A stretch of 64,000 nucleotides of DNA from Oscillochloris sp. (GTDB lineage: Bacteria > Chloroflexota > Chloroflexia > Chloroflexales > Chloroflexaceae): positions 1 through 64,000 of the forward strand of contig JAAUQO010000003.1 of the NCBI GenBank assembly GCA_012032775.1. The letters are read 5' to 3'. The notes below the pieces were generated by a model that worked only from the letters and a program-made list of their open reading frames with translations, did not search any database and was not told where the DNA came from. The position numbers and the translations under genes are program-made. This document shows, in pieces, positions 3,031 to 20,620 of the stretch. Position 1 is the first letter of the stretch. Every line of letters starts with the position of its first letter.

Positions 3031-3366
3031 AGTCTGCCAAAAGGCAAAAGCGAAAGGCGAAGTTGCTGCATTGGAACCTCCTGCGGCAATTTCGCCTTTC
3101 GCCGTTCATATGGCGCATTGCGGCCGTCCTCACTACTGCATATCGTAAAACTGTACGTGAGCGGTTATGAATTTGCTATAATCAAGCCATACAATAGAGG
3201 TGTGGCACATTCGCTGGAATGTCGTATCGGCGAATGTGAAACCGCTCCACCATTTCGGCAGCACCCAAATAGATGCTGTCTTGGCCTGTGGTACTGGGCG
3301 ATTTCTTTTGTCGGCCTGCGCTTTCGGTTGCGTTGCCGCGATAATTGTCTCCAGAGAAAGTCTGCC

Positions 3367-5247
3367 ATGCTCGCGCCCGGCACTGTTATACAAGACCGCT
3401 ACCGTGTCATTGCCCAGATTGCGAAGGGCGGGATGGGCGCGGTTTATCAGGCGCGCGATTTGCGGCTGCGTACCGATGTTGCGATCAAAGAAACGCTATT
3501 CAGCGATGATGCGTATCGCCAGGCATTCGAGCGCGAAGCACAGGTGCTGGCCCGTTTACGGCATCAGGCGCTGCCCAGGGTGATCGATCATTTTATCGAG
3601 CGCAACGGCCAGTTTCTGGTGATGGAGTATATCGGCGGCGAGGATCTGGGCAATCAACTTACCCGCCTCGGCCGGCGCTTCGCCTCGCCTCAGGCGCTAC
3701 CGATCGTCTTGAAATGGGCCGAGCAGTTGCTTGATGTGCTGCATTACCTGCATTCACGCCCATCGCCGGTGATCCACCGCGATATCAAACCCAAGAATCT
3801 GAAACTCTCGGCCAGCCACGATATTATTTTGCTCGACTTCGGCCTTTCGCGTGGCGGCATGACGGTGGCGATCGATGTCACCGACGACGGAACCACGACG
3901 CCGGAATCACGCAAAGTGTATGGCTTTACGCCGCCCTACGCACCCTTCGAGCAGATGCGCGACGGTGATCCCGACCAGCGCAGCGATATCTATTCGCTCG
4001 GTGCCACGTTGTACCATATGCTCACCGGTACGCTGCCGCCCGATGCGATGGCGCGCATGGCGCGCTTGCTCAACAGCCAGCCCGACTCGCTGCGCCCGAT
4101 TCAAGATCTGGCCCCCCATGTGCCTGTGGCGGTGGCCGAAGTGATCGAGCATTCGCTGGCGGTATTGATCGATGATCGCTTTCGCTCGGCGCGTGAAATG
4201 CGCGATGCACTTTTGCAGGCCCGCGGTCAGCGCCGGCCGCGCATCCAGCCGATCACAAATCGCCATCCCGAGTACCAATCGGCGGCCCCGGCGGTCGAAA
4301 TTCCGCTGCCGACCCCTTCGGTTGTTGCCCCGCCGACCCCCTCGGTTGCCGCCGATAGTACGCCGATGGGAACCCTGATGCGGCGGATGATCACCGGTAG
4401 CCCGATTCGCGCGGTTGCATACGGCCCCGACGGCAAAAGCCTGGCCGCCGGCTATGATGATCATACGATCGGCCTGTGGCATCTGGAAGACGACACACCG
4501 ACAGCGACGTTGCGTGGCCATAGCAGTAGTGTTCGCGGCGTCTCGTTCAGTAGCCAGAGCGGCTTGCTTGCCACCGCCAGCGACGATGAAACGGTGCGGC
4601 TCTGGGAGGTGAAGAACGGCATCCAGCGGCGCATGGTGCGGCTGCCCGGCTGTCAGATCGAAAGTATCTGCTTCAGCCCCGACGGCAAGTATCTTGCGGC
4701 CGGTGGTTGGGGCAGCGCCGTGGTTCTGATGACGGTCGATGATGATCGGATCGAGCCGCTGGGATCGCTGCCGTGCCCGTTTGTGCATAGCTTAGCCTTC
4801 AGCCCCGACGGCGCTCTGCTCGCCGCCGGTGGTTTCGACGGCGCGATCTACCTCTGGCGGATCGACGACCTCGAACGCGAAGGCGTGATCAATGGCTTCA
4901 GCCACTTCATCTACAGCGTCGCCTTCAGCCCCGATGGCCGGTACCTCGCGGCCAGCAGCAATAATCGGGTGCGCGTCTGGCGCATGCCCGACCAACTCGC
5001 GATCGAGACTCTGGAGGGCCATAGCGGGCCGGTGCGCAGTGTCGCCTTTAGCCCCGACGGTCAGACTCTTGCATCGGGTAGCGAGGATCGTAGTGTGCGT
5101 TTCTGGCGCCTTAGCGACGGCGCCCTGATGCCGCTCAGCCTTGATCACAGCGCCGGTGTCGCCAGCATTGTCTACAGCCCCGACGGCCATACCCTCGCCG
5201 CCGGCACCCACGACGGCCGGATCTTCCTCTGGCGGGCCAAAGACTAA
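3367..5247 (+). CDS. serine/threonine protein kinase with C-terminal WD40 repeats
   Basis: Kinase motifs VIHRDIKPKNLKL, LLDFGLSRG, SDIYSLGATLYHMLTG; repeated 'FSPDG..LAAG..D..I.LWR' WD40 units. Start set at MLAPGTVIQDRYR. Confidence 0.92.
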   Translation: MLAPGTVIQDRYRVIAQIAKGGMGAVYQARDLRLRTDVAIKETLFSDDAYRQAFEREAQVLARLRHQALPRVIDHFIERNGQFLVMEYIGGEDLGNQLTRLGRRFASPQALPIVLKWAEQLLDVLHYLHSRPSPVIHRDIKPKNLKLSASHDIILLDFGLSRGGMTVAIDVTDDGTTTPESRKVYGFTPPYAPFEQMRDGDPDQRSDIYSLGATLYHMLTGTLPPDAMARMARLLNSQPDSLRPIQDLAPHVPVAVAEVIEHSLAVLIDDRFRSAREMRDALLQARGQRRPRIQPITNRHPEYQSAAPAVEIPLPTPSVVAPPTPSVAADSTPMGTLMRRMITGSPIRAVAYGPDGKSLAAGYDDHTIGLWHLEDDTPTATLRGHSSSVRGVSFSSQSGLLATASDDETVRLWEVKNGIQRRMVRLPGCQIESICFSPDGKYLAAGGWGSAVVLMTVDDDRIEPLGSLPCPFVHSLAFSPDGALLAAGGFDGAIYLWRIDDLEREGVINGFSHFIYSVAFSPDGRYLAASSNNRVRVWRMPDQLAIETLEGHSGPVRSVAFSPDGQTLASGSEDRSVRFWRLSDGALMPLSLDHSAGVASIVYSPDGHTLAAGTHDGRIFLWRAKD

Positions 5248-16855: not shown

Positions 16856-17800
16856 CTATACCGCCAGGAGCGCTTCCAGCGCGATCGCCGTCGTCAGGGC
16901 GGGGCTGCCGTCGAGGTGAGGCGGATAACCGGAGTAACTTGCGGCTCCCGGCCAGGCGCCATCGGGTGATTGGCAGGACAGTAAGGCCTTCAGATACGGT
17001 TTTGCGGCCTTGTGTTCGCCGGCCAGGCCCAGGGTAGCGGCAAGGCATGCCAGCCGAAACGGTTCGTGTTCCTGTGGCGGGGTGAGCAGATCCGCGACGG
17101 CTGCCGGCAGCGCTGCGCCAAGTGGTGCGAGTCCTGGTGCTCCGGCGGCGTAGGCACGCGCGGCGCAAAACAGCAGCAAGTGGGGTGTCAGGCAGTAATC
17201 ACTGGCTGCATCCCAACGATCTGTTTCAGCCATTGCACACAGCCATTGGGCCGATCCGGCCAATGGAATCCCGGCCAGGCCCGAGAACAGCAGCAGATTC
17301 GCCTGAACAAGCGCATCAACCTGGCGGGCCAGCAAATGCTCGCCGCTATTCACGCCGATCCAGGTGTAGTACGGCCCGCCCGGCGCCGCCTCATTCTCCC
17401 AGAGCAGGCGAAACAATTCCGGCCCAACCGGCTCGCCGCAACTAAGTAATGCCGCCGCCGCACAGGCCGTATCATCCAGATCGGCTGGAACCCGTGTTGT
17501 GGCCCGGCCTTCGTACGACCAGCTTCCATCGCTGTTGCGTTCGCTGAGCAGAAATGCGGCGGCACGCCGGCGAATAGCCGCCGCGATCCGGTGCTCGGCA
17601 AGTTGACGTAATGCATATACCACAAACGTGGTTGTGTAGATCGAGGTAGGATAGGCTTGCGGATCGGAGAAATCGAGCCGGCGAGCGCTGAAGGTCGGGA
17701 ACTCGCCGGTTGGCTGTTGCAAGCCCGCAAGTGCGCTGAGTGCCGACTCGATAACCTGATGGTAGTGGTCGTGCATAGATCTTTGCGCAGTTTCAAGCAT
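16856..17800 (-). CDS. prenyltransferase/squalene-hopene-cyclase-like alpha-toroid protein with a DxDD(T/A) motif
   Basis: QxxxGxW-like repeats (LLSERNSDGSWSYEG, LLSCQSPDGAWPGAASYSG) and DLDDTACAAAALL; start codon directly abuts the upstream stop (taa-atg). Confidence 0.75.
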   Translation of the reverse strand: MLETAQRSMHDHYHQVIESALSALAGLQQPTGEFPTFSARRLDFSDPQAYPTSIYTTTFVVYALRQLAEHRIAAAIRRRAAAFLLSERNSDGSWSYEGRATTRVPADLDDTACAAAALLSCGEPVGPELFRLLWENEAAPGGPYYTWIGVNSGEHLLARQVDALVQANLLLFSGLAGIPLAGSAQWLCAMAETDRWDAASDYCLTPHLLLFCAARAYAAGAPGLAPLGAALPAAVADLLTPPQEHEPFRLACLAATLGLAGEHKAAKPYLKALLSCQSPDGAWPGAASYSGYPPHLDGSPALTTAIALEALLAV

Positions 17801-19210
17801 TTAGCGGGCGATGGATGCAGGCTGCTCGGGGGTATGGCCGATTGGCGCCGCTGAAGCAACCTGGATTACCACCACGGTAATGTCATCGCTTTGCTCGGAG
17901 TCGCCGCGAAACATACGTACCGCATCCCAAATACGTGCCAACATCTGATGCGGATCGTGGCCGACCGTGCTGGAGATCGTATCGATCAAGCGGTCGAAGC
18001 CGAACAGTTCGCGCTGCGGGTTCTGCTCTTCGATCACACCGTCGCTCAGCAGCACCAGTTGATCGCCCGGTTCCAACTGAATAGTATGTTCGGTATAGAT
18101 CGCATCGGCGCGGGCGCTGAGCGGCAAGCCACAAACTTCAATCTCGTGCAATGCACCATTGCGCCGCAGCATCGGGAATGGATGGCCGGCATTCGAGAAC
18201 GTCAGCGTCAGGTTCTGAGTGTCAAGGACGCCGTAAAACGCCGTGATCATCTGGCGCACCGAGCGATCACGGCAGAGCGTTTCATTTGCGGCCGTCAACA
18301 CCGCCGCCGGACTTAAGGCGCGCGTCGATTCGGAGCGGATCGCCCCACGCGCCATTGCCATCACAAGTGCGGCAGCGATACTCTTGCCGGTTACATCGGC
18401 GACCACAATCCCCAGCCGATCGTCGGGCAGATCGATAAAATCATAAAAATCGCCGCTGGTTTCGCGGGCCGGTTCCGAGCGCGAGGCGATTACCAGATTG
18501 GCGTTGGTCAGCGGCGGCGGCGGATAAAGGCGCTGCTGCAACTCACGGGCGATCGCCAGATCGCGCCGCAGCAACTCGTCGTGCATAATGCGCCGGCGGG
18601 CCATTTCAATCCGTTGTTCAGCCGCAGCCAGTGCGCGTTGAAAAAGCCACGAGATCAGTGCGACAATCAGCAACAGACCAATAACCGGCACGCTTGTGGC
18701 CAGTGCGCTTGAGAATGCGCTGCGATCGGTAACCGGCTCGACCACGCGAAAATAGTACTCCAACATGGCCAAGATCAGCAGCGAGTCGCCGATCGCGAAG
18801 ATCCAGGCCGCGCGCACATTGATCAAGATGCCGGCCAGCAAGACGCTCATCGACAACACCGCCGCGAAGATCATCCCAACGATCAGATTCTGCTCGGACA
18901 GCAGATTCAGCCCACTAAGCAGAATAATGCCCAGGTTGATCCAATTGGCGAAGAGGTTGGCGGCGGCGGCGGTATAGCCGGCGCGATCAAGCCAGACGAC
19001 CAGCAGATTAAAGGCTGCGCTGCCGATCACGATCGCATATGAGATCAGATTGGGCGTGCCGTTGAAGAACATAATCAGCAGGCCGAGGAGGGTCAGAACA
19101 AGCAAGCCGCGGTTAATTGGGCGCAAGACACCCGAACGCCGAGCGCGCGTCGTCTCGGGCGCCAATTGCGCGATCAGTTGTTCCATATCGTCGATCTGCT
19201 CGTCCGACAT
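17801..19210 (-). CDS. membrane-associated PP2C-type (SpoIIE/RsbU-like) protein phosphatase
   Basis: Six or so TM segments, then REPARETSGDFYDFIDLPDDRLGIVVADVTGKSIAAALVMAMARGAIRSE...LTLTFSNAGHPFPML...LVLLSDGVIEEQN. Start set at MSDEQIDDMEQ. Confidence 0.88.
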   Translation of the reverse strand: MSDEQIDDMEQLIAQLAPETTRARRSGVLRPINRGLLVLTLLGLLIMFFNGTPNLISYAIVIGSAAFNLLVVWLDRAGYTAAAANLFANWINLGIILLSGLNLLSEQNLIVGMIFAAVLSMSVLLAGILINVRAAWIFAIGDSLLILAMLEYYFRVVEPVTDRSAFSSALATSVPVIGLLLIVALISWLFQRALAAAEQRIEMARRRIMHDELLRRDLAIARELQQRLYPPPPLTNANLVIASRSEPARETSGDFYDFIDLPDDRLGIVVADVTGKSIAAALVMAMARGAIRSESTRALSPAAVLTAANETLCRDRSVRQMITAFYGVLDTQNLTLTFSNAGHPFPMLRRNGALHEIEVCGLPLSARADAIYTEHTIQLEPGDQLVLLSDGVIEEQNPQRELFGFDRLIDTISSTVGHDPHQMLARIWDAVRMFRGDSEQSDDITVVVIQVASAAPIGHTPEQPASIAR

Positions 19211-19314
19211 AATACATTCAACGCGGGCCTGTGAGCCTGCGGCCCATACAATTCGGCGGTTCGATGTGGTCATGCTGCGACCCTGCATCGAACCGCCGAG
19301 ATCATGGCGATAGA

Positions 19315-19533
19315 CTAACTCCAGACGCTCCCACGCATTGCATCGAGTTCGGCCCCGATCTTCTGCTTGCGGTTCTGTTTTGCGGCGTCTTTCACCGCAT
19401 CTTTGATCGCCTTTTCCTCGTCTTTGGTCAGGTTGAAGCCCTTCATTGCTTGCTCGGGATTCTTGAACAACTCATCGCGAAACGCCGGATCGGTAACGGC
19501 CTGACCGATCAGTTTCTTCATCTCGTCGCTCAC
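19315..19533 (-). CDS. NHLP-clan (Os1348-like) small peptide, putative RiPP precursor
   Basis: aggaggcattcGTG start; (V/M)SDEMKKLIGQAVTDPAFRDELFKNPEQAMKGFNLTKDEEKAIKDAVKDAAKQNRKQKIGAELDAMRGSVWS resembles nitrile-hydratase/Nif11-like leaders (short 'DPxFRxxLxxxPxxAxxxxxLTxxE' block). Confidence 0.65.
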   Translation of the reverse strand: MSDEMKKLIGQAVTDPAFRDELFKNPEQAMKGFNLTKDEEKAIKDAVKDAAKQNRKQKIGAELDAMRGSVWS

Positions 19534-19636
19534 GAATGCCTCCTCAATACGATCCAATACGCCACGCTAAACGATCACGCGCCGGGTGTCAAGCATCTAC
19601 AATGCACCACGCTGCGGCTCGATCGAACAAACGCCG

Positions 19637-20620
19637 TCATCGGTCGGGATTAGACTGCGTCGGCGGCGCGGACAGATTGAATAAGCTGCGAATGAAACCA
19701 CGATGCCGGCGTAACTCATGCCATGCTCGTTCGTCGCTGGCCTGTTGGTACGCGATCAAATCGGCCAGTCGGCATGGGGCGTATGGCGCCAGCAGGGCGG
19801 TGGCGGCCGTGCAGTGGCCGGCATGCTCTTGTTCCAATCCATGCCAAACGTCGTCGGCGGCAACCTGATGGCCGGCGAGCCATTCCAGGCTCAGCGCTGC
19901 GCGAGCATGGGGCGAGGCCTGCAACAAGTGGCGGATCAAGCGGGCTGAGGCATAATTCAGATGGCCGCGACGCAGATCGGCGACCCAGTCGGAAGCATCA
20001 TCGGCGATCTGGCGGGCAGCCGTGAGGTGGCGAATCGCGGCGGGCAGCGCATCGGCCAGGCCGGCCGGAAGATCCGCAGGCGTCAGTGTGAGCTGTGCGA
20101 TCACCACAAAACCGAACGGCGCCGATCGATCCATCAACAGATCCGGCGTGAATACCGCCAGATTCGCCTCAGTGAGGGCCGGAAGTTCCGATGGGCGCGC
20201 CTGCAACTCGGCGGCATAAGCGGCAGCGCTCGTGAGGGCTTGCTGTTGCAACACCGCCCAGGCCGGTGTTTCGGCTAAACCCAAACGACGGTAGCCCTCA
20301 AGGGCGTTGAGCAAGGCCTGTTGCGCGGCCGGCAACACCGCCGGTGAACCGCCGTCGAGCGTATCGTCGAAGGCCGAGGCATACCACCAGAGCCAGAGCC
20401 CGGCGCGGCCAAGGGCGTGTTGCTGTTCAACCGAGATAGGGATGAGGTCGGAAAGCCAGGCCGGCAGCAGGGCGGCCAGTTGGCTGAATTCGCTCCTGAG
20501 CAGGCGATCGAGATCGGGGGCAAGCAGAGTTTGTAGCAGCGGGGGATAGTCAGCCGTCACCGCCTGAAGATCGGCAGTGATTGCAGCATAGCGTTGCGTA
20601 TCGGCCGGATCGAGCTGCAT
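19637..20620 (-). CDS. class-I isoprenoid synthase-like protein with two Asp-rich motifs
   Basis: LWWYASAFDDTLDGG (DDxxD) and ARQIADDASDWVADLRRGHLNYAS (second DDxxD); all-alpha composition. Start set at MQLDPADTQRY. Confidence 0.65.
   Translation of the reverse strand: MQLDPADTQRYAAITADLQAVTADYPPLLQTLLAPDLDRLLRSEFSQLAALLPAWLSDLIPISVEQQHALGRAGLWLWWYASAFDDTLDGGSPAVLPAAQQALLNALEGYRRLGLAETPAWAVLQQQALTSAAAYAAELQARPSELPALTEANLAVFTPDLLMDRSAPFGFVVIAQLTLTPADLPAGLADALPAAIRHLTAARQIADDASDWVADLRRGHLNYASARLIRHLLQASPHARAALSLEWLAGHQVAADDVWHGLEQEHAGHCTAATALLAPYAPCRLADLIAYQQASDERAWHELRRHRGFIRSLFNLSAPPTQSNPDR

Follow-up and report, generated by a model that had tools for sequence, protein, structure and literature searches.

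The window analysed here is a 64,000-nucleotide (nt) stretch of Oscillochloris sp. (Chloroflexota; assembly GCA_012032775.1, contig JAAUQO010000003.1, positions 1 to 64,000), and it carries a cassette of four consecutive minus-strand genes encoding a class I isoprenoid-fold protein (gene i), a small precursor peptide (gene ii), a membrane SpoIIE/PP2C phosphatase (gene iii), and a class II terpene-cyclase-like protein (gene iv), with an inverted repeat between genes ii and iii (Table 1). A first-pass annotation had described the four genes, with genes iii and iv abutted, from the letters of the sequence; both the arrangement and the coordinates are confirmed, the SpoIIE stop codon ending at 17801 and the gene iv start codon beginning at 17800 (a direct taa-atg junction). 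The SpoIIE reading frame opens at 19288, and comparison with homologues places its start at about 19210. The score of the peptide against a hidden Markov model (HMM), the fold of gene i, and the conserved gene order make the cassette more than a chance grouping, and we read it as probably a prenylated-peptide system resembling ComQX and PalQX, with the phosphatase as signalling partner.

Table 1. Features of the cassette in the Oscillochloris sp. window
Feature	Position	Strand	Size or basis
Gene i, class I (trans-prenyl-synthase fold) protein, proposed tryptophan prenyltransferase (ComQ/PalQ-like)	19637..20620	-	327 amino acids (aa); fold match, invariant residues
Gene ii, precursor peptide with Os1348-type NHLP leader	19315..19533	-	72 aa; NF038399 score
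Perfect 14-nt inverted repeat with 19-nt loop, between precursor and SpoIIE genes	19253..19299	-	strong RNA hairpin
Gene iii, six-transmembrane sensor region plus SpoIIE/PP2C phosphatase, proposed receptor or output	17801..19210	-	~469 aa from homologue-supported start
Gene iv, single-domain class II terpene-cyclase-like protein, accessory, proposed prenyl-chain cyclase	16856..17800	-	314 aa; profile and Foldseek matches

Gene ii starts with GTG behind a strong ribosome-binding site (GAGGAGG), and its product scores 54.3 bits against NF038399, the model of the Os1348 family of the NHLP clan (curated cut-off, 40 bits); by this score, it is a predicted Os1348-type NHLP precursor of a ribosomally synthesised and post-translationally modified peptide (RiPP). 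The first-pass annotation had recognised the leader type correctly but had overlooked the feature that is key to the chemistry, namely, an invariant tryptophan near the C-terminus. The tail of the peptide ends in GSVWS, and its sole tryptophan is residue 71 (codon 19321-19323). In all loci fetched from genomes bearing the class I gene, the 25 distinct peptides of this kind (W-type peptides) without exception contain exactly one tryptophan, 0 to 2 residues from the C-terminus, in tails that are otherwise variable in the peptide alignment (for example, GSVWS, GSTW, GTQWG, GVWA, SFWK, SSWK, PVWN, SGWS, KADEW, SGWL, AFWG, and GWFS). Tryptophan occurs in none of 36 housekeeping-type Os1348 paralogues, which end in GRGFI, GKGFV, and similar sequences; six of 36 other, non-housekeeping Os1348 peptides have a tryptophan among their last three residues, each with at least two tryptophans, and no gene i homologue was found in the genomes of these six. 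A near-C-terminal tryptophan as such is not unique to the W-type system; tails with a single near-terminal tryptophan appear specific, among the Os1348 peptides examined, to the class I-linked subset. ComX and PalX show this pattern, in which one tryptophan stays fixed while the tail around it varies and a class I isoprenoid enzyme is encoded alongside, and the combination of an NHLP leader with a conserved C-terminal tryptophan is that of PalX in particular, although most of the tryptophans here are not strictly last, unlike that of PalX. At two loci (L091 in G048:C129 and L016 in G061:C151), two or three W-type precursors with differing tails stand in tandem ahead of one SpoIIE gene.

Gene i matches no Pfam or NCBIfam family at a meaningful score, nor do its distant class I relatives, and profile searches of Protein Data Bank sequences (profiles A1 and A7) found nothing; fold comparison alone succeeded. 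The AlphaFold2 model is all-helical (predicted local distance difference test, or pLDDT, 86.7; predicted template modelling score, 0.83) and matches trans-prenyl synthases, Ord1 among them, with a Foldseek probability of 1.00 and best TM-scores of 0.6 to 0.7; since the E-values lie just above 0.001, gene i is a distant member of this fold. Its two DDxxD-like motifs, on which the suggestion of a divergent isoprenoid synthase had been based, are DDTLD at residues 85-89 (the first aspartate-rich motif, or FARM; D85 and D89 codons within 20354-20368) and DDASD at residues 207-211 (the second aspartate-rich motif, or SARM; D207, D208, and D211 codons within 19988-20002). D85, D89, D207, D208, D211, and Q204 are invariant among 21 gene i homologues, and the persistence of the catalytic aspartates down to about 25% identity argues that activity is under selection; the predicted class I fold and these residues together bear the suggestion out. 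GKxxR and RRG, hallmarks of trans-isoprenyl diphosphate synthases (trans-IDS) and the motifs by which ordinary prenyl synthases hold isopentenyl diphosphate (IPP), were not seen after the FARM on inspection of the gene i sequence, which fits an acceptor other than IPP. Q204, just upstream of the SARM, is a weak discriminator, and ordinary prenyl synthases often also have a glutamine there. Such a glutamine is conserved in tryptophan-prenylating trans-IDS-like enzymes, and Ord1 is a prenyltransferase of free tryptophan (PMC13290415). The first and fifth aspartates of the FARM, represented here by D85 and D89, are essential in ComQ (PMC5331326). Members of the ComQ family proper (IPR033965) have a pseudo-SARM of the form NDxxx or GDxxx; with its full, invariant D207-D208-x-x-D211, gene i is not assigned here to ComQ itself.

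Gene iv lies just over the cut-off of Pfam SQHop_cyclase_C, and its DLDDT motif (residues 107-111) is invariant in all six homologues. Profile A2, built around gene iv, retrieves drimenol synthase at 1.7e-9, followed by squalene-hopene cyclase and AstC, with MstE also matched; phmmer with gene iv alone returned alpha-Rep repeats, and the profile was needed for the class II matches. In Foldseek, the AlphaFold2 model matches the prenylcyclase 6ij1, the drimenol synthase AsDMS, and MstE with E-values of 5e-5 to 3e-4. Gene iv therefore combines the alpha-toroid fold and the DxDD/DxDT acid motif of single-domain class II cyclases, in agreement with the earlier description of a class II-like toroid; a placement of the acid aspartate within the cavity would rest on a model of modest confidence (pLDDT 74), in which the loop preceding the motif (residues 97-106) falls below 50. 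The first-pass annotation had made its reading depend on a catalytic geometry of the active-site aspartates in both isoprenoid proteins: the motifs are indeed invariant, and the evidence is that of sequence motifs rather than of model coordinates.

Gene iii scores 177 bits against Pfam SpoIIE, has six transmembrane (TM) segments, and keeps its PP2C motifs intact in the homologue alignment, so that the membrane SpoIIE phosphatase named earlier stands. Mean identity between loci is 28% in the TM region versus 51% in the PP2C domain, consistent with a sensor that tracks a changing ligand (with the caveat that membrane segments often drift faster anyway). The peptide and SpoIIE genes adjoin each other at every W-peptide locus examined, and a six-TM SpoIIE/PP2C phosphatase occupies the place held by the adjacent histidine kinase of PalQXP and ComQXP. 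The inverted repeat between the two genes folds strongly (z -3.7), and inverted repeats of unrelated sequence occur at the same position in L012, L014, L090, L091, L092, and L093 (about half of the relatives examined), being absent in several others. Hairpins of this kind are usual after abundant precursor genes, and this one possibly sets precursor expression against that of the downstream genes. Promoter and terminator scans gave results at chance level.

To place the cassette in its order, 83 Chloroflexales genomes were searched with the class I profile, with NF038399 (peptide tails being checked), and with the SpoIIE six-TM region. W-peptide, class I gene, and six-TM SpoIIE share one set of 22 genomes. 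The sole exception is an orphan SpoIIE gene in G010 (L162, G010:C214), for which neither peptide nor class I gene was found. It lies close to the end of its contig and seems to be broken by a frameshift, which resembles decay once the system had been lost, or else a fault of assembly at the contig end. Two more weak six-TM matches (E ~5e-11) are partial and lie within other proteins. The raw probability of this co-occurrence, 1.4e-20, ignores descent and is not meaningful alone; genera g6, g9, and g11 are mixed, however, with peptide and class I gene present or absent together inside each, so common ancestry does not by itself account for the distribution. The class II gene turned up in six of the 83 genomes, each of them a carrier of gene i, and in no others of the order. 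Peptide, SpoIIE, and class I gene form the constant core, with the class II gene as an accessory; of the four-gene unit proposed earlier, the three-gene core holds, whereas gene iv is an optional part (6 of 22 genomes) rather than a constant one.

The conserved-neighbourhood comparison called for by the first-pass annotation yielded the identical order (class I, peptide, SpoIIE, class II) in four other genomes, namely, ZM16-3 (L014), G032 (L012), G030 (L013), and G012 (L015), at 44 to 58% identity per protein, the short peptide excepted. Upstream of the class I gene, L014 and L015 carry an exporter set (HlyD, MacB/FtsX, and ABC ATPase), which is present in part in L012 (MacB and ATPase) and in L013 (ATPase, on a short contig). 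The other flank of the window's cassette, a CobW GTPase and two further genes, is common to g9 (putative Chloroflexus-type) genomes, where the order is peptide, SpoIIE, class I, with no class II gene. In g20 (putative Herpetosiphon-type) genomes and in G048, peptide and SpoIIE stay together and the class I gene lies elsewhere in the genome; even where the loci separate in this way in the putative Herpetosiphon-type genomes, the three core genes still co-occur. In one genome (G001), a clostripain-family (C11) protease with an FHA domain, a candidate leader peptidase, adjoins the cassette (L045:9652-12699).

Sequence families, folds, invariant catalytic residues, the invariant tryptophan, strict co-occurrence, and synteny are established directly, and the fold, the invariant aspartates, the invariant tryptophan, and the co-occurrence favour the earlier idea of the isoprenoid proteins as modifying enzymes of the peptide. 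We put the probability that the cassette is a ComQX/PalQX-like prenylated-peptide system with the phosphatase as signalling partner at roughly 0.6. The precursor would be produced in excess, and its NHLP leader would dock on gene i, which would bind a prenyl diphosphate via the FARM and transfer a C10-C20 chain to Trp 71, the single near-C-terminal tryptophan; this prenylation, for which folds, invariant residues, and precedent speak, is the step we hold to be highly probable. Where gene iv is present (six genomes), its DxDD motif may then serve to protonate and cyclise the prenyl chain, in the manner of the C domain of ChrPC/NctPC, a step suggested by the same kinds of evidence and somewhat favoured. 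A peptidase would release the tail for export, a task that the neighbouring HlyD-MacB-ABC cassette may perform in some relatives. The product would act on the six-TM region of the phosphatase and alter dephosphorylation of a cytoplasmic partner, in the role of ComP or PalP; whether SpoIIE is the receptor or output of the peptide we regard as an even bet. In the fullest version of this scheme, a membrane PP2C phosphatase would sense an isoprenyl-tryptophan peptide and feed a partner-switching cascade, and in some species a separate class II cyclase would give the peptide a polycyclic terpenoid head. This version is tentative, and we would give it rather less than even odds.

Several observations weigh against this reading. 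PalQ is inactive when residues follow the tryptophan (PMC10853753). Here, 0 to 2 residues do so, although ComQ tolerates such residues. Gene i keeps a full DDxxD SARM, and work on Bacillus ComQ considered a SARM of the DDxx(D) type ill suited to tryptophan prenylation (PMC5331326). The gene iv model is of modest confidence, as described above, the co-occurrence counts are not phylogenetically independent, and the link between peptide and SpoIIE is one of genomic association. No exporter lies next to the cassette in the window, and no leader peptidase was identified.

The strongest competitor retains the chemistry and drops the signalling: genes i and iv would make a tryptophan-prenylated, possibly cyclised, antimicrobial or membrane-active peptide, with SpoIIE regulating only expression or a stress response. 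In Pseudomonas sp. Os17, Os1348 itself has been connected with antibiotic activity (PMC7726476), MacB-type exporter genes adjoin the cassette in four relatives, and the strong hairpin after the precursor gene is typical of high precursor expression. We nevertheless consider this unlikely, given that SpoIIE is the most tightly linked partner, staying beside the peptide even where the class I gene has moved away, that its sensor region evolves fast, and that no immunity gene is evident.

Two further explanations dispense with peptide modification. Gene i could be an ordinary synthase of short-chain prenyl diphosphates, and gene iv a terpene cyclase acting on free substrates, the operon yielding a small terpenoid while the peptide regulates the phosphatase. 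Both aspartate-rich motifs of gene i are complete, its top structural matches are prenyl diphosphate synthases, and gene iv resembles AsDMS, a class II cyclase of free farnesyl diphosphate; yet gene i shows neither of the IPP-binding motifs GKxxR and RRG and has no Pfam prenyl-synthase match, the class I gene tracks the W-peptide in 22 of 22 genomes while the class II gene is missing from 16 of them, and the invariant tryptophan is left unexplained, so we judge this improbable. Less probable again, with only a slim chance of being right, is an unmodified NHLP-like peptide that serves as a protein partner of SpoIIE (for example, an inhibitor or adaptor) alongside a class I protein degenerated to a binding function. 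The constant adjacency of a small peptide to SpoIIE would suit such a role, as would the position of a housekeeping Os1348 paralogue beside a very large signalling protein, but gene i keeps its catalytic aspartates in every one of 21 sequences, and a variable tail with one fixed tryptophan fits a modified core.

The closest described counterpart of the proposed prenylated-peptide system is PalQ-PalX-PalP of Paenibacillus alvei (2023; PMC10853753), a small three-gene cluster comprising an NHLP-type precursor with a conserved C-terminal tryptophan, an isoprenoid-synthase-fold enzyme lacking its own family entry, and an adjacent signalling protein; we liken gene i to PalQ by fold and gene logic, from the description of PalQ rather than from its sequence. 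It differs in its host, in the lack of a cyclase, in a tryptophan that is strictly last, and in the use of a histidine kinase (PalP) where SpoIIE/PP2C stands here. The founding case, ComQ-ComX-ComP of Bacillus (PMC5331326), likewise pairs a class I isoprenoid-fold enzyme with a small precursor whose fixed tryptophan lies near a variable C-terminus and with a membrane receptor encoded alongside, but a recognised leader motif is missing from ComX, the second motif of ComQ is a pseudo-SARM, the receptor ComP is a histidine kinase, and there is no cyclase. In PMC13290415, which cites Hubrich 2024, ChrPC and NctPC are described as coupling a tryptophan prenyltransferase domain (trans-IDS-like in ChrPC) to a cyclase domain, which in NctPC resembles the single-domain class II cyclase MstE; both domains are fused in one polypeptide there and are encoded separately here, and ChrPC modifies an internal tryptophan in place of a near-terminal one, with the Os1348-type leader and phosphatase being further differences of the present cassette. 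The precursor belongs by HMM score with the Os1348 family of NHLP-clan proteins (NF038399; Pseudomonas sp. Os17, PMC7726476), whose maturation partners are different.

In view of these precedents, the label "undescribed" in the first-pass annotation was too strong for the chemistry, as PalQ/PalX and ChrPC/NctPC preceded it. Among the papers searched, none was found that links enzymes of the ComQ type with Chloroflexota, or SpoIIE with NHLP peptides, and separate prenylation and cyclisation enzymes, a Chloroflexota host, and a PP2C partner appear to be new. If the proposed reading is right, tryptophan-prenylated NHLP peptides extend from Paenibacillus to Chloroflexota (apparently including Chloroflexus and Herpetosiphon), a phosphatase replaces the histidine kinase as their partner, and prenylation and cyclisation, described so far in fusion enzymes, are split over two genes. 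The class I proteins, a family without an entry in Pfam or NCBIfam, would also acquire a suggested function. Only on the fullest version of the scheme would ComX/PalX-like pheromones gain a new kind of output, in cell-cell signalling of Chloroflexales. Peptide, enzyme, and proposed receptor are directly testable in the 22 genomes, two of which are single-contig.

The wider class I profile (A7) finds weak homologues outside the Chloroflexales. Among other Chloroflexota, two loci (L173:4238-6283, minus strand; L174:3565-5610, plus strand) encode 681-aa fusions of a class I domain with a class II-like toroid, bearing a FARM of DEAID, a SARM of DDLHD, and a toroid DADD motif. The toroid half matches SQHop_cyclase_C at 45 bits, and in hhalign profile A5 gave a weak local match to that of L173 (probability 10), so the C-terminal half is class II-like by Pfam and motif rather than by direct profile match. 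The fusions mirror the ChrPC layout, and this suggests that the products of genes i and iv work one after the other. Their neighbours are a SPASM-like radical SAM protein, a 63-aa precursor-like open reading frame (tail CWANCGINIGL), an ABC ATPase, and an FtsX permease, the radical SAM, ATPase, and precursor assignments being made from motifs read by eye rather than by HMM. The two loci may represent a second, ChrPC-like isoprenoid RiPP cluster, with the radical SAM protein as its probable maturase.

Other Os1348 peptides encountered in the survey differ from the W-type in their tails. L120 carries tandem precursors (3126-3416 and 3584-3841) with multi-tryptophan tails (GWWLIILGWFHWW and GWWYIIWGWFSWW), and, with the related RPxW..WP tails of L122 and L128, it makes up a different tryptophan-rich core family. 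The housekeeping Os1348 peptide (tail GRGFI/GKGFV, no tryptophan) is present in many Chloroflexales, including a paralogue in the host itself (L017:9864-10079). In both loci read, it directly adjoins a protein of 1442-1510 aa (L094:8186-12942 and L095:8784-13332), which in L095 has a nucleotide cyclase-AAA-TPR architecture; Os1348 peptides may thus partner signalling proteins more generally.

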